Of a stretch of 64,000 nt of DNA, positions 18,586 to 25,805 are shown one piece after another. The position numbers and the translations under genes were made by a program. Numbering within the stretch: position 1 is the stretch's first letter; the number at the start of each line of letters is the position of its first letter. The notes beneath the pieces are model-generated. The model did not search any database. It worked only from the letters and a program-made list of their open reading frames with translations, and was not told where the DNA came from. The stretch comes from Methylotenera sp. (GTDB lineage: Bacteria > Pseudomonadota > Gammaproteobacteria > Burkholderiales > Methylophilaceae), in NCBI GenBank assembly GCA_013141495.1, contig JABFQV010000002.1, forward strand, positions 1-64,000, written 5' to 3'.

Positions 18586-18650
18586 AAAATAAAGTATCGT
18601 TGCCATAAGTTGTTGCTTCGATACCTTTAATTAGCGTAACAAAAAAATAA

Positions 18651-18676
18651 AAAAGGCTGCTTCGGTAGCCTTTTTT
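18651..18676 (+). terminator. Intrinsic terminator after rplI
   Basis: AAAAGGCTGC TTCG GTAGCCTTTTTT. Confidence 0.9.
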
Positions 18677-18707
18677 ATTTTGATTGAACGGTGTGGTGTT
18701 ATCTTTT

Positions 18708-18853
18708 AAAGATCTTTGCAAAAGTACTAATTGTGGATGAAGTGCAAGGCGCACGGAACACAGCGGCCGAGATAGTACGCGGTGTACAGCGATGATGCGA
18801 GTACCACGCAACGCAGCAATTCGCTGCAAGTAGTACTTTTGCAAAGGTCTTTT
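18708..18853. mobile_element. MITE-like element (about 146 bp) with near-perfect 21-bp terminal inverted repeats
   Basis: AAAGATCTTTGCAAAAGTACT at left vs reverse complement of right AGTACTTTTGCAAAGGTCTTT: one mismatch in 21; no coding capacity for a transposase. Confidence 0.75.
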
Positions 18854-18975
18854 TTTAATCTTAAACCAAAAGTGCGAAATATCTGTTTGCCAGCGACGTG
18901 AGCTTTAAGCGCGTTACATTTTTTTACAATTAAGCTACAATTCATCAAAATAAACAAAAATATAAAGGTATTCTG

Positions 18976-20757
18976 ATGTTCGGTTACAATTACCCACCCC
19001 CTCACGATTCTGAAATAAAGCAACAGTTAGTTCATCAGCAGGCTTCATGGTCAGGTCTTGCTGCTTTTTCACATCAGTTTAAATTATCGCCGCGCATCGT
19101 CGCTACGCCGCTACTTTTATGTTTAGCACTACAAGGTTGCGCAACCAATCCAGAAACCGGCAAGTCCTCAATCGGCGAAACATTTAAACAAACGTTTAAT
19201 AGCGATGATCCTTGTGCAAACAATGCGCGCAACATTGGCATTTTAGGAGGGACGATATTAGGCGGAATTATCGGTAGCCAAGTTGGCGATGGTAAAGCGA
19301 CAGGTATCTTGCTAGGTATTGGTATTGGTGGTGCCTTAGGTGCGTTCATTGGCTCAGAAGTGGATAATCGCCAGTGTGCGCTTTCAAAAATTGGCAAAGA
19401 ATATGGCTTGGATATGCAAGTTACTCCATTGGCCGTCAGTACTGAAGCAACAACGGGTAAAGAGGGGACTGAAGCTACAACTAAGTCGGCAGAGAATACC
19501 CAAAAAGTTGGACTCTCTGTATCGGTGGTCGATGTAGATGGAAAGCCACAGTTTAACAGTGGCTCGGGTGACCTTCAGGCTGATGCAAAGCAACACTTTA
19601 GCGAAATTGCCAAACAATACTCCGCCAGTGAGCAGGTGGTACTTATTGGTCAGGGTAAAACCGAGCACGAAAAGAAAGCCATTTTTAATGAGCTACGTAA
19701 AAAACGTATTTTATTGATTGGTCATACCGATGATACTGGCAATTCTAAAGCAAATGCCCATCTGTCAGAGAGGCGCGCAAAAGAAGTTGCCAGGTTATTC
19801 AAATCTATGGGCGTTGAAGAGGGACAATTATTCTATCAAGGCGCGGGTGAGACCATGCCTATTGCAGACAACGCAACCACTGAAGGTCGCGCTAAAAACC
19901 GTCGGGTAGAGATTGTTGACCTGACAAATGATGATGCTTTCAAGCTTTATCTGCAAAATAAACGTGCCAAAACTGAGTATTACCGCCCTGTCGATGCGGT
20001 TGAAGCAAAAAACAATGCGGATACCTCAATCAATACGCGACAAGCCGAAACGGCAACCTCCAACAAATCTCCATCTAACAAAAAAGAGCAGCCAGTAGTT
20101 GTGACTAAAAAGTCAGACCAGAAAATCACGACTTCTAAAGACGCTGCCGTCGTTAAAAATAAATATACACCTCCCTCTTGGATTGATTTTGGCGGATTAC
20201 CTGCTACGCGCGAGAATGCTGCCGTTAATGTGGGAGAGGTCGCCAGCGAAAAACCTAAATTCGCCTTCATTAGCACCGCACAAGCAAGTGATATGAGACA
20301 TATCAGTGTGTGCAATATGGATAGGCCTCGTGACTCAGGTGCCGTGAAATCACTTAAAGATGGTAAAACCTATGCAACCAACGAGCATCTTCCTAGCCTT
20401 AATGGCCGCTCTTGGAAAGATACTGTAGGTGGAAATCTCGTGGTGCTAAACCGTGTAGCGGTATTGCGTGATGGCGCAACATTAGCCAATGCCCCAGAAC
20501 TCAAAGTATATGCCAACTACAACGCAAGCAAAAATCGCAACGCTAAACCTGATTTGGCGATTGCGCCTGCGGTAAATATTTATCAAGGCAGCAATGGCTT
20601 GCTTTACCGAGTCTTTGCACAAGGCAATCAAGGCTTGCAGTGCATGGATGTGCTAATGCCGCTTGATAATAGTGGCGTTGCTAAAGGTGGTAAGGTGGTA
20701 TACGGCAATAAAGAAAATGTTTTGGTGGCTGACTTTAAGCCTGTCATGGTTCGTTAA
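18976..20757 (+). CDS. Glycine-zipper/OmpA-like envelope protein, putative lipoprotein
   Basis: LLLCLALQGCATNPETG lipobox-like; GGTILGGIIGSQVGDGKATGILLGIGIGGALGAFIGS glycine zipper; GHTDDTGNSKANAHLSERRAKEVARLF...EGRAKNRRVEI OmpA_C-like; unknown C-terminal domain. Confidence 0.8.
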   Translation: MFGYNYPPPHDSEIKQQLVHQQASWSGLAAFSHQFKLSPRIVATPLLLCLALQGCATNPETGKSSIGETFKQTFNSDDPCANNARNIGILGGTILGGIIGSQVGDGKATGILLGIGIGGALGAFIGSEVDNRQCALSKIGKEYGLDMQVTPLAVSTEATTGKEGTEATTKSAENTQKVGLSVSVVDVDGKPQFNSGSGDLQADAKQHFSEIAKQYSASEQVVLIGQGKTEHEKKAIFNELRKKRILLIGHTDDTGNSKANAHLSERRAKEVARLFKSMGVEEGQLFYQGAGETMPIADNATTEGRAKNRRVEIVDLTNDDAFKLYLQNKRAKTEYYRPVDAVEAKNNADTSINTRQAETATSNKSPSNKKEQPVVVTKKSDQKITTSKDAAVVKNKYTPPSWIDFGGLPATRENAAVNVGEVASEKPKFAFISTAQASDMRHISVCNMDRPRDSGAVKSLKDGKTYATNEHLPSLNGRSWKDTVGGNLVVLNRVAVLRDGATLANAPELKVYANYNASKNRNAKPDLAIAPAVNIYQGSNGLLYRVFAQGNQGLQCMDVLMPLDNSGVAKGGKVVYGNKENVLVADFKPVMVR

Positions 20758-20771
20758 TTAGGAAATTTTGG

Positions 20772-22331
20772 ATGATCGATACAATCAAAGAGTTATTTTC
20801 ACTCTCGCCAGTTTTGGCTTGGAGTCTCGTGAGCACGTTGCTAGCGTTAGTTATCGTGATCGCCTTGTGGGATAAGGTTTCTTGGATGTGGTTAAACTTC
20901 TCGATGGATTGGTGGCGTACTTCTAGTCTGTCTAAGGATCTTAATAAAGACACAGCCAACTCAGCTTGGTTTAAAGCAGAAAAAGCTTTATGTAGAGAAT
21001 ATAAGAAATTTATTCGACTCCAAAGCCAAGCTGATTTTGATGAGAAAGTAGATTATCTGACTAAAGCAGGCGACAATGGCCGCTCGCCAACGCCTACTTG
21101 GATTTTTGTACTAACCGCAATTTTGGTGTTTATTGAGGCTATGGGGTTTAGTTATGTGTTGGCAGGCTATACCATCCCTGGTGCTAGTGAAACCACACAA
21201 CAATATGGTGCATTAGGTATTGCCTTTTTGATTTCTATTATTTTATTTGCATTTACGCACTTCGCAGGACATGAGCTTTATGTGTCTAATAAAATAAAAC
21301 ATGCGAGACGTGAGTGGTCTGAAGATGGGCGTAAACAGAAATTTACGACGGATACTATCGCTTTAGCTGGCAAAAAGAATAGTAGTGATGATGGGCAGCC
21401 CAGCTATACGCAAATGGTGAATCGGGTCGGTACACATGAAAACTATATGATGACGTATGTCACCATTGCTTGTGTATTGATTGTAGCGATTGGTGCTACT
21501 TACGTGCGCGGGCAAGTATTAGAGAAAATGCTACAGCAGACTGTGGTAAATAGTCAAAATCAAGCTGAACTTGGATTATCCATAACCGAGGATGGCTTAA
21601 ATATGACGGTTAAAGGCGCAGATGACTCTGCTTTGCCTGATGCTGATAAGGCGCAAAACCAAGCTTCAAAAGACAAAGCCGTGCAGGATGAAGTCAGTAT
21701 AGACAGGCATGGTGGTTGGGGTACATTTATCATTTTGGCATTTATTTTTATCTTTTTGCAATTACTTGGCGTTCTTTTTGGATACAAATGGGGTTTTGCT
21801 GGTAGAGATAGCAAATCTGCCTATAAAGCGATAGGTAGCGGTCGCTATACGTCCTATGCGGATGTGCGTCAACGCTATAGCGAAGTAGCCGATACCGCAC
21901 AAGCCAAGCTTGAGAATTTGCAACAAAAGTTGATGAAACGTAATGTCGATATTGGCACGGAAGGGATGCACACAAAAAACACCTTCCTAGAGTTTATGAA
22001 AATGGCGCGTTTGGAAGAGTCTGGAGACAGGGCAGATCAAGATAGTCATACCACTCGTCAGGCTGTAAAAGATAGTGCTACCTCTAGTGTGCAAGAGCCT
22101 ACGCCCAAGCCAGCAGAAGTGGATGCACCTCTGACAGTTCACCAAGCGATGCAACAATTAAATGCATTACAAGATAAAGAGGATAAGCGAGCCTACATTA
22201 AAAGCCTGCCTGTTTCTATGCAAGAGGAAGTCAAAAGCGCGCTGGCACTGGCAAAAGCTGAAGAAGCAAAAAAGGCGCAAGATCAAGCTAAATTAGCGCA
22301 ATTAGATGCAGAGCTGGATGATTTGCTATGA
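20772..22331 (+). CDS. Multi-pass membrane protein of unknown function
   Basis: About five hydrophobic segments and a charged, Q/A-rich C-terminal tail; ATGA overlap with the next gene. Confidence 0.75.
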   Translation: MIDTIKELFSLSPVLAWSLVSTLLALVIVIALWDKVSWMWLNFSMDWWRTSSLSKDLNKDTANSAWFKAEKALCREYKKFIRLQSQADFDEKVDYLTKAGDNGRSPTPTWIFVLTAILVFIEAMGFSYVLAGYTIPGASETTQQYGALGIAFLISIILFAFTHFAGHELYVSNKIKHARREWSEDGRKQKFTTDTIALAGKKNSSDDGQPSYTQMVNRVGTHENYMMTYVTIACVLIVAIGATYVRGQVLEKMLQQTVVNSQNQAELGLSITEDGLNMTVKGADDSALPDADKAQNQASKDKAVQDEVSIDRHGGWGTFIILAFIFIFLQLLGVLFGYKWGFAGRDSKSAYKAIGSGRYTSYADVRQRYSEVADTAQAKLENLQQKLMKRNVDIGTEGMHTKNTFLEFMKMARLEESGDRADQDSHTTRQAVKDSATSSVQEPTPKPAEVDAPLTVHQAMQQLNALQDKEDKRAYIKSLPVSMQEEVKSALALAKAEEAKKAQDQAKLAQLDAELDDLL

Positions 22332-23176
22332 AAACTTTTACGATGAAACAGGGCTTTCTGATGACCTCGTGCTTCATCGCCTCAAGTTTGGCTGTGGCTG
22401 GGCAAATGAATGCGATACCGACTTGCTACAATGCAAAAATAACAGCGCCCAATGAGAATGTTGAAACGGAGTTGTTTGTGATTATCGATCAAACCACCCC
22501 GTTTGATGCAAGGCTTAAGCAAGCTGTGGCTGAAAATGTACGCCCCTTTTTGCAAAGCAATCATGCCTTTTCTGTGACGCAGTTTTCAGCTTTTACACAA
22601 GGGCATTACACTGAAGTGCTTGTTTCAGGCAAACTAGATGCAACGCTAGCGCAAAAGCAGCGCGATGATATTTCTAAACCAGTATTGGCGAAATATGATC
22701 AATGTATCGCCCTGCAAACAAAGCAGGCTTCTCGGCTTTTAGGCGGTGCAATGAAGTCATCATTTAGTGCAGACAATAGTACAATTACTAAATCAGACGT
22801 ATTTGCCAGCCTCAAAGACATTTCAAGCAAAGTTAAACAATCCAAAGCGGACACAAAAGTCGTGTTAATAGCTTCGGATATGCTGGAAAATTCTTCTATT
22901 ACCAGCTTCTATGCCAAGCAAGCAGTGCGCCAAATCAACCCTGAAAAAGAGCTTAAATTAGCGGAAGACAGCCAAATGTTTGCTGATTTTGCTGGTGCCA
23001 AAGTGTATGTGATTGGCGCTGGGCTATTAGCTGAGGATGCTAAACAAGCAAAAGGCGTTTATCGCTCACCGCAAATAATGCAGGCACTGGCAACTTTCTG
23101 GAAAGCTTGGTTTCATAAATCCAATGCCGAGTTGATTGAGTTTGGGCAGCCTGCACTATTAAACCCCGTTCGTTAA
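22328..23176 (+). CDS. Secreted VWA-like protein of unknown function
   Basis: N-terminal signal-like segment; ELFVIIDQTTPFDARLKQA...TKVVLIASDMLENSS...AKVYVIGAGL resembles a VWA fold with degenerate MIDAS. Confidence 0.6.
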   Translation: MKTFTMKQGFLMTSCFIASSLAVAGQMNAIPTCYNAKITAPNENVETELFVIIDQTTPFDARLKQAVAENVRPFLQSNHAFSVTQFSAFTQGHYTEVLVSGKLDATLAQKQRDDISKPVLAKYDQCIALQTKQASRLLGGAMKSSFSADNSTITKSDVFASLKDISSKVKQSKADTKVVLIASDMLENSSITSFYAKQAVRQINPEKELKLAEDSQMFADFAGAKVYVIGAGLLAEDAKQAKGVYRSPQIMQALATFWKAWFHKSNAELIEFGQPALLNPVR

Positions 23177-23210
23177 TTGCTAATTCATCACAATTAGAGG
23201 ATCGATACGT

Positions 23211-23405
23211 ATGCGTTTACTGATAGCATTTATTTTACCTTGGCTCACATTTTTTACGATAGGTCGTCCTATTGCAGGCACTATTTGCTTGATATTCCAA
23301 ATCACAATCATCGGTTGGATACCTGCAACTATTTGGGCAGTATATGCATTAAGTCAATATAAAACAGACAAAAAAATTGAGGCCGCACTACAAAAGCATT
23401 CATGA
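23211..23405 (+). CDS. PMP3/YqaE-like (UPF0057) small membrane protein
   Basis: 64 aa, two TM: LLIAFILPWLTFFTIGRPIAGTICLIFQITIIGWIPATIWAVYAL. Confidence 0.8.
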   Translation: MRLLIAFILPWLTFFTIGRPIAGTICLIFQITIIGWIPATIWAVYALSQYKTDKKIEAALQKHS

Positions 23406-23467
23406 AAGTAGCGGATATTAAAGAAGGAAAATTCTGCTTGCCATTGCATCAATAAAGGGAATCAACA

Positions 23468-24298
23468 ATGAGTGCTATTTTAAGTTTTATCGGTAGTTTA
23501 TTGACATTTTTACTATTTATTGCACTTGTCGTCGTAGCTATCGCTTTTTGGGGTTATAACACTTTACGTTCGTTATCAGAAAATATCCGTGAAGGTTGGT
23601 CTAACATTGGGGTGGTCGCAAAAAAACAGGTTTCTCTTATCAATCAACTGCAAGATGTAGTAAAGGGTTATCAGGAGTCTGAAAAGCTAGTGATGCTTAA
23701 AGTGTCTAGTGATGTATCATCGGCTAATCAATTGGCGCAATTTCATCAACAATCGAGCATGCTACTTTCGGCGGTTGGAAGCATGGCGCAAAAGTTTCCA
23801 GAGTTAAAAGCTAACGAACAATACCAACGGATTATTGATAGCATTCAAACTTGTGAGGCTCAACTTGAATCAGCGCGTCAAAAATATAATGCGGCGGTTA
23901 AGGCTTACAATGTCAAACGCAGTTCTATCCCCCACGTATTATATGCATCAACCTTGGGGTTTAAAAATGCCCCCTATCTTGAGTTTGATGGAGAAACGCC
24001 TTTACTAGAAGTTGGTACAATGAAAACTTTTGTTACGGACGATGACGGCGAACGTATCAACATATTATTAGGGCAAGCTGGTAATAAGCTTTTAGAGGTC
24101 GGTAACAAGGCCATTGAAAGTAGTAAGCAAATTGCTGATGCAGCGCATGAGAAAATAAAACAAATCCAAGAAACAAAAACTGGCGCTAACGTTTCTCAAG
24201 ATAAGACTGAGTCAACTTCTACTTGCCCTGCTTGTGGTGTAAGTGTTTCTACAGCAAGTGCTTTTTGTAACCACTGTGGCACTAAACTCAGCACCTGA
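23468..24298 (+). CDS. LemA-like membrane protein with C-terminal zinc ribbon
   Basis: N-terminal TM; YNTLRSLSENIREGWSNIGVVAKKQVSLINQLQDVVKGY...YNAAVKAYNVKRSSIPHVL; CPACGVSVSTASAFCNHCG. Confidence 0.82.
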   Translation: MSAILSFIGSLLTFLLFIALVVVAIAFWGYNTLRSLSENIREGWSNIGVVAKKQVSLINQLQDVVKGYQESEKLVMLKVSSDVSSANQLAQFHQQSSMLLSAVGSMAQKFPELKANEQYQRIIDSIQTCEAQLESARQKYNAAVKAYNVKRSSIPHVLYASTLGFKNAPYLEFDGETPLLEVGTMKTFVTDDDGERINILLGQAGNKLLEVGNKAIESSKQIADAAHEKIKQIQETKTGANVSQDKTESTSTCPACGVSVSTASAFCNHCGTKLST

Positions 24299-24422
24299 CT
24301 GCAGGGAGTCTCTAAAAATTCACCTAAAATTAATACTTCTTGGATTGACTATAAAAATGTAATTTTTATAGGTCCCCTTAATTGAGCATCGGCAGGGTAG
24401 CAATGTTGGGTATAATCACGTC

Positions 24423-25805
24423 ATGGCTGATGAACAATTAGATGCACTTAAAATCCCCCCCCACTCAGTAGAAGCAGAGCAATCTGTCATTGGTGGTTTG
24501 CTGCTCGAAAATGAAGCGCTGGATAAAGTTGCGGATATTTTAAGCGCACAAGATTTTTATCGATATGACCATAAGCTTATTTTTCAGCACATTGCTAAAC
24601 TGATTGAGCATAATAAACCTGCCGACATTGTGACGGTGGCAGAATCGTTAGAAAACTCTGCTGAGCTTTCAGGCGTAGGCGGCATTGCCTATTTGGGCAC
24701 GTTGGCACAAAACACGCCTACAGCGGCTAATATACGGCGCTATGCAGAAATAGTGCATGAGCGTTATGTGATGCGTCAATTGGTGGTAGTGGGGTCTGGC
24801 ATTGCCGAGAGCGCTTACGCGCCGAACGGTCGTGATGCGCAGCAGTTGTTGGATGAAGCTGAGGCTAAGATATTTCAGATTGCAGAGGGTGGTAAACGTA
24901 GCACTGAAGGCTTCGTGGATATTAAAGTATTGTTGCCACAAGTGGCTGACCGTATTGATCAATTATTTTCGCGTGACAATCAGTCTGATGTCACTGGCGT
25001 ACCGACAGGGTTCGCTGATTTGGATTCAATGACCTCCGGCATGCAGGGCGGTGATTTAATCATCGTCGCAGGGCGACCTTCTATGGGTAAAACGGCATTT
25101 TCACTCAACATGGCCGAAAATGTGGCGCTGGATACTGGGCTACCTGTTGCCGTGTTCTCGATGGAAATGGCGTCAACACAGCTTGCAATGCGGATGATAG
25201 GCTCAGTAGGGCGCTTGGATCAACATCGTATGCGCACGGGTAAGTTGGAAGATGAAGATTGGGAAAAACTGACGACTGCGCTGGGCAAACTCAACGAGGC
25301 GCCTATTTTTATTGATGAGGGCGCGGGTTTAAGCAGCTTTGATGTGCGTGCAAGAGCGCGACGATTGCATCGCCAAACAGGCAAGCTGGGCTTGATTGTG
25401 GTCGATTACTTGCAATTGATGGCGGCACCCGCAGGGCGGCAAGGTGAAAACCGTGCCACTGAAATTTCTGAAATTTCACGTTCTCTTAAGGCGCTTGCCA
25501 AAGAGCTTGATTGTCCCGTTGTTGCACTCTCCCAACTCAATCGCAGTGTAGAGCAACGCCCAGACAAACGTCCGGTCATGAGCGATTTACGCGAATCTGG
25601 CGCGATTGAGCAAGATGCGGACGTGATTTTGTTTATCTATCGTGATGAAGTTTACAACCCTGATAGTGCCGATAAAGGCACCGCGGAAATTATTATTGCC
25701 AAGCAACGTAACGGTCCTATTGGTCGGGTTAGATTGACGTTCTTGGGTCAACATACCCGCTTTGAGAATTTTGCCGGTTCGAGTCATATGTCTGATGAAT
25801 ACTAG
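24423..25805 (+). CDS. dnaB: Replicative DNA helicase
   Basis: PPHSVEAEQSVIGGLLL, GRPSMGKTAFSLNMA, DYLQLM. Confidence 0.98.
   Translation: MADEQLDALKIPPHSVEAEQSVIGGLLLENEALDKVADILSAQDFYRYDHKLIFQHIAKLIEHNKPADIVTVAESLENSAELSGVGGIAYLGTLAQNTPTAANIRRYAEIVHERYVMRQLVVVGSGIAESAYAPNGRDAQQLLDEAEAKIFQIAEGGKRSTEGFVDIKVLLPQVADRIDQLFSRDNQSDVTGVPTGFADLDSMTSGMQGGDLIIVAGRPSMGKTAFSLNMAENVALDTGLPVAVFSMEMASTQLAMRMIGSVGRLDQHRMRTGKLEDEDWEKLTTALGKLNEAPIFIDEGAGLSSFDVRARARRLHRQTGKLGLIVVDYLQLMAAPAGRQGENRATEISEISRSLKALAKELDCPVVALSQLNRSVEQRPDKRPVMSDLRESGAIEQDADVILFIYRDEVYNPDSADKGTAEIIIAKQRNGPIGRVRLTFLGQHTRFENFAGSSHMSDEY

Follow-up and report, generated by a model that had tools for sequence, protein, structure and literature searches.

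A 64,000-nucleotide stretch of DNA from Methylotenera sp. (assembly GCA_013141495.1, contig JABFQV010000002.1, positions 1 to 64,000; hereafter the window) carries five genes, here called A to E, between rplI and dnaB. We find that the conserved unit is the first three of these genes, A-B-C, which is widespread, and that D and E are optional add-ons. An earlier reading of the window, made from the sequence alone, had proposed an undescribed envelope system at this site. That proposal is borne out in the form of a lipoprotein for the outer membrane and peptidoglycan, a multi-transmembrane protein and a periplasmic protein with a VWA fold. The companion idea of a five-gene module is not. The three proteins probably form a complex that joins outer membrane, cell wall and inner membrane, in which C would act as an adaptor linking A to B, and the tail of B would carry cytoplasmic adaptors that differ by lineage.

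The trio is conserved across phyla. Scanning a C profile against 84,980 species genomes gave 54 loci, and six plasmid loci bring the set to 60: four in which C stands without A or B (solo C) and 56 others. A-B-C is uninterrupted in 49 of these 56, and one more (L113) has the same order with B split in two. The order is B-C-A in two Enterovibrio loci, contig ends interrupt three loci (L085, L095 and L109), and in L081 B is truncated and A is absent. B is next to C in every non-solo locus where its position is visible. All matches in the scan are confined to double-membrane phyla, and the trio ranges over Alpha-, Beta- and Gammaproteobacteria and Campylobacterota, on chromosomes as well as plasmids; a tblastn search with B located OmpA-B-C on plasmids of Aliarcobacter, Pantoea, Paraburkholderia and Acidiphilium. 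The order persists in distant taxa, where the junctions are short or overlap, and such conservation is far beyond chance. Moreover, the pairwise distance matrices of A, B and C agree closely (r 0.89–0.96 for 41 loci), as expected of joint inheritance; the agreement speaks for co-inheritance, not for contact. The sequence-only reading relied on all five families occurring together across genomes, and this holds widely for A, B and C, whereas D accompanies them nowhere else in the loci examined and E does so in few lineages. We found no description of such an operon in the open-access literature (subscription papers and preprints were outside the scope), and comparison of the Enterobacter copy with E. 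coli by DNA similarity found no E. coli carriage. A divergent A-B-C variant is present in three loci (L136, L149 and L206), with a shorter B (∼445 residues) and the motif DES, not DQT, in C.

Gene A had been described as a putative Gly-zipper/OmpA-like lipoprotein, and the description stands. The protein matches the Pfam OmpA model at 68.9 bits (cut-off 27.2) and Gly-zipper models just below their cut-off, and Cys55 of its lipobox (LQGC) is invariant in 44/44 homologues; by sequence, then, A is a lipoprotein with predicted acylation. Equally invariant (44/44) are D252 and R267 of the OmpA domain, which we take to be the conserved Asp and Arg of the OmpA peptidoglycan-binding site. The C-terminal region, ∼200 residues, is uncharacterised yet conserved, with C446 and C556 invariant. 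The N-terminus of A (18976–19140) is unusually long, placing 54 residues ahead of the lipobox, and it is long too in the homologue from Methylotenera G007.

B has no family match in Pfam, NCBIfam or PADLOC, and neither B nor C has a sequence relative among solved structures. The predicted transmembrane segments of B are centred near residues 23, 122, 155, 236 and 328, and a long helical cytoplasmic tail is also predicted. Within the second segment, E122 is invariant (46/46), and the loop between the fourth and fifth segments is acidic, suggesting a periplasmic hairpin. The structural model of B (pLDDT 84.6, pTM 0.65) has no significant Foldseek match among solved structures. Weak N-terminal matches to the B profile in five genomes (G237, G483, G397, G381 and G517) were rejected as spurious, the genes reading as GspF-like in type II secretion loci.

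C is likewise matched by nothing in Pfam, NCBIfam or PADLOC. It had nevertheless been called VWA-like, a label that no profile supports and that the predicted fold bears out. The AlphaFold2 model (pLDDT 87.8, pTM 0.85) retrieves overwhelmingly VWA structures as its top Foldseek matches (E 3e-5, probability 1.00), with TM-scores of only ∼0.3–0.5; on this model C has a VWA fold, a common protein-binding fold. The motifs D54xT56 and S183-D184-x-L-E-N-S and the cysteines C33/C126 are invariant. SpaC, PilB and 3ibs (BatB) are among the matched structures, and VWA folds are frequent in adhesins and pilins. The trio could on this ground be an apparatus for secretion, surface display or cell contact, in which B exports or activates C, and C, fixed to the outer membrane by A, serves as an adhesin or ligand; the signal sequence of C and the lipoprotein nature of A would suit it. 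However, the N-terminal signal sequence of C is ordinary and the protein has no anchor or second domain, and B is unrelated to ATPases or known transporters. We regard a display apparatus as unlikely.

For the envelope-spanning complex, the sequence-level basis is in hand: an operon, its conservation and co-inheritance, a lipobox, peptidoglycan-binding residues and, from the predicted structure, the VWA fold of C. We infer where the proteins lie, that they form a complex, that metal is bound and signals are passed, and what the trio does for the cell, and propose the following mechanism. A would be anchored by its lipid in the outer membrane and hold peptidoglycan through its OmpA-like domain. 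B would lie in the inner membrane, exposing a periplasmic helical hairpin on one side and its long helical tail to the cytoplasm. C, as a periplasmic VWA adaptor, would join the C-terminal domain of A to the periplasmic part of B, perhaps through a putative metal-dependent pocket resembling a metal-ion-dependent adhesion site (MIDAS). The trio would then act as a tether and would sense wall damage or the distances separating the two membranes and the wall: as A shifted against B, the membrane core of B (E122, second transmembrane segment) and its cytoplasmic tail would change. That tail may bind lineage-specific cytoplasmic adaptors, such as the zinc ribbons fused to B in some homologues or, in the window, the LemA protein with its zinc ribbon; zinc ribbons do turn up repeatedly in portions that should be cytoplasmic, namely four B members and E. 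In a Pseudomonas group, an mscS-like gene, resembling those for mechanosensitive channels, lies 3′ of C on the same strand (L096, L097, L099, L100, L107, L116 and L127), a suggestive pointer to envelope mechanics.

Adding the sensor and tether role to the complex lowers our confidence, and we place the whole reading slightly short of an even chance. Several observations weigh against it. The mscS-like adjacency is limited to one lineage. The second Ser of the MIDAS motif DxSxS varies in C, with D54, T56 and D184 invariant. The topology of B is uncertain because its model is of moderate quality and resembles no known fold. Finally, the trio is dispensable, since it is rare (among 150 related genomes B was detected in 3, the window's own and two relatives) and sometimes broken (L081, L113 and G864).

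Relatives of C occur in a second setting. Solo C homologues (L194–L203 and L130–L133) are linked to C with an HHalign probability of 100, and in the C tree they form one side of a branch, sister to the others. In 10 of 12 gammaproteobacterial solo-C loci, C adjoins, and is divergent from, an LPP20/FlgP-like gene, and in nine of them FlgT is present too; of the remaining two, L197 is at a contig edge and L200 is without flgP-flgT genes. The LPP20 matches are at or just below the Pfam cut-off, and FlgT was called by Pfam in L130–L133 and elsewhere by a profile built from those four. In Vibrio motors, FlgO, FlgP and FlgT make up the outer-membrane H-ring (PMC7990780), and in polar flagellar motors the flgP-flgT products are an outer-membrane lipoprotein and parts of the periplasmic scaffold. 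The O-ring protein was still unknown when that review was written. The placement of the sister branch beside flgP-flgT indicates that C relatives recur with outer-membrane scaffolds, and solo C is a candidate unrecognised periplasmic component of the flagellum.

The same linkage could mean that the trio itself serves motility as a scaffold derived from an outer-membrane disk component of the flagellum, all the more as FlhA is present in all ten solo-C genomes searched. By contrast, the flgP/flgT linkage belongs to solo C relatives only: A-B-C loci, including the window, generally do not lie beside flagellar genes, and FlhA was not found in the A-B-C carriers G478 and G364 (draft genomes, 94% and 98% complete). 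We consider this origin of the trio's function quite unlikely. A flagellar relationship was also considered for the C-terminal domain of A, and was ruled out when comparison with FlgP and FlgT gave no similarity.

Could the trio be a defence system? The sequence-only reading had raised this role, and as an anti-phage or anti-conjugation device A and C would sense penetration of the envelope and B would depolarise or kill the cell through its membrane core. The distribution is indeed patchy, the plasmid carriers include mobilizable and conjugative ones, and the window site is polymorphic for insertion and absence. Furthermore, the OmpA domain, through which A chiefly matches ZorB models, is similar to ZorB profiles, and some neighbours match PADLOC models (IetA, TRIP13 and PDC-S families). 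These last are, however, scattered single neighbours, without a baseline rate, and among 126 flanking proteins there is no conserved or recurrent effector partner. No copies were found in phages or viral contigs. In large part, the branching of C matches host families (Pseudomonadaceae, Enterobacterales, Vibrionaceae, Burkholderiaceae and Campylobacterota), and several Pseudomonas species keep the trio at a single chromosomal site. Such a tree is more in line with a conditional function that is stably kept than with a defence gene that moves rapidly. A defence role is a live but in our view improbable rival, with positive evidence limited to patchiness and plasmid carriage.

D and E were correctly assigned by the sequence-only reading. 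D matches the Pfam Pmp3 model at 33.4 bits (cut-off 22.9), and E matches LemA at 92.4 bits (cut-off 26.2), with sub-threshold zinc-ribbon matches and an intact CxxC...CxxC pattern. All five genes could be a single dedicated complex: they are contiguous on one strand, the gaps between them contain no terminator-like site on the + strand, and a LemA gene lies 3′ of C in five loci, namely the window, Methylotenera G007 (L080), an unclassified proteobacterial metagenome-assembled genome (MAG; L081) and two Rhodospirillaceae MAGs (L094 and L095). The trio-linked LemA proteins, E among them, group together (99/98) and away from every other LemA copy in the comparison, and by sequence E appears to be a distinct LemA subfamily; the alphaproteobacterial pair (L094 and L095) has long branches and is without the zinc ribbon. 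Against a five-gene complex, no PMP3 gene lies beside the trio in any other examined locus, and E is missing from most. Furthermore, the congener G021 has an E relative (74% identical, with the zinc ribbon) without A-B-C alongside, on a conjugative-element-like contig that encodes YccF, a type IV secretion system coupling protein and an LPD7 protein (L074, 551–10106). Gene neighbourhoods thus reject the five-gene module and leave A-B-C as the unit; a single complex of all five is already largely refuted, and we hold it to be very unlikely.

The locus itself was read accurately: the five same-strand genes between the rplI hairpin and dnaB are placed correctly to the base, and the hairpin is real and found again in relatives (Table 1). 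The gaps are 14 nt (A-B), −4 nt (B-C, an ATGA overlap), 34 nt (C-D) and 62 nt (D-E), and 124 nt separate E from dnaB, which starts at 24423. Flanking genes in the window are ribosomal genes and priB on the rplI side and dnaB, alr and radA on the other.

The rplI-dnaB gap had been expected to be nearly empty in other genomes, and it holds no protein gene in G016, G014, G011, G013 or G007; in G001 it holds two unrelated genes. The close relative G016, whose dnaB is 99% identical, is without the window's copy at the same site by alignment, and its ∼220-nt replacement stretch (L072) contains a palindromic element that differs from the window's. Because this nearest relative has a different palindromic element there, the site seems to accept insertions. 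Elsewhere in the genome, the window's repeat occurs as two more near-full copies (90–92% identical) and as several partial copies. In G007, the trio and E are placed elsewhere in the genome and not in the rplI-dnaB gap.

Table 1. Features of the A–E locus and its edges, in window coordinates.
Feature	Position	Strand	Product length	Description or basis
Gene A	18976–20757	+	593 aa	Gly-zipper/OmpA-like lipoprotein (by sequence) with conserved uncharacterised C-terminal domain
Gene B	20772–22331	+	519 aa	Predicted inner-membrane protein, new family, ∼5 transmembrane segments
Gene C	22328–23176	+	282 aa	Predicted secreted periplasmic protein, VWA fold (model)
Gene D	23211–23405	+	64 aa	Small PMP3/YqaE-like membrane protein, local addition
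Gene E	23468–24298	+	276 aa	LemA-family protein, C-terminal zinc ribbon, lineage-restricted accessory
LQGC lipobox Cys codon of A	19138–19140	+		Sequence and invariant alignment column
OmpA-like domain of A	19684–19902	+		Pfam, residues 237–309
Intrinsic-terminator-like hairpin 3′ of rplI	18644–18681	.		Recurs in relatives
Palindromic repeat, left edge of insert	18708–18852	.		∼145 bp
Segment swapped for ∼220 nt in G016	18680–24408	.		Alignment break

What might the trio mean for envelope biology? Few systems physically couple the two membranes and the wall (Tol-Pal, Ton, Mot and Zorya), and the trio would add one, in carriers that include plant-associated, aquatic and campylobacterial bacteria. 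We tentatively suggest, as a possibility on the unlikely side, that A-B-C is a trans-envelope machine of a class so far overlooked in Pseudomonadota and Campylobacterota, combining a new inner-membrane family that has an intramembrane Glu with a periplasmic VWA adaptor, and that flagellar outer-membrane scaffolds contain an overlooked component from the same VWA family. The ring components of polar flagellar scaffolds were incompletely known at the date of the review (PMC7990780), and the sister branch of C is a testable candidate for a missing part.

Among known systems, Zorya combines ZorA, a MotA/ExbB-like motor subunit, with ZorB, which has an N-terminal transmembrane segment and an OmpA-like domain, and with ZorC/D or ZorE effectors (PMC11890865 and general knowledge). 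The trio resembles ZorAB in its OmpA-like peptidoglycan-binding domain and in having an inner-membrane partner whose cytoplasmic tail is long and helical. The sequence-only reading had pointed to a ZorAB/MotAB resemblance, which fails beyond this level: profile searches and Foldseek on B found no homology or fold in common with ZorA, MotA or ExbB and ruled out Zorya/MotAB membership, and A is lipid-anchored, unlike the single-transmembrane ZorB and MotB. The trio also includes a VWA protein, and a ZorC/D/E-type effector is absent at the window locus, in keeping with the earlier remark that no helicase or nuclease partner was seen. No Zorya family appears in the flanks of relatives among the 25 of 43 families listed.

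Tol-Pal shares the theme of an outer-membrane lipoprotein with an OmpA-like domain and inner-membrane and periplasmic partners. However, A is not Pal (51.1 bits, equivalog cut-off 125.35), C is a predicted VWA protein and not a TolB propeller, and TolQ/R/A relatives are absent from the trio. YiaD-type Gly-zipper/OmpA lipoproteins, the best NCBIfam match of A, have the same N-terminal layout, but A falls short of the cut-off (109 bits, with 175 required) and has an extra ∼200-residue domain and fixed operon partners. The FlgP/FlgT proteins of the Vibrio H-ring, whose genes adjoin solo C relatives, share the theme of outer-membrane lipoprotein and periplasmic scaffold (PMC7990780), but differ from the C-terminal domain of A and from the VWA fold predicted for C. 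BatA/BatB and other bacterial VWA proteins share that fold, whereas C would be free and periplasmic and has no MoxR ATPase neighbour. D and E are ordinary members of the PMP3 and LemA families by Pfam score, with E set apart by its branch and zinc ribbon. Loosely, the trio may work as Zorya, Mot and Tol-Pal do, as a wall-anchored trans-envelope device. Peptidoglycan-anchored trans-envelope complexes are already known; what is new here is this composition, together with the B family.

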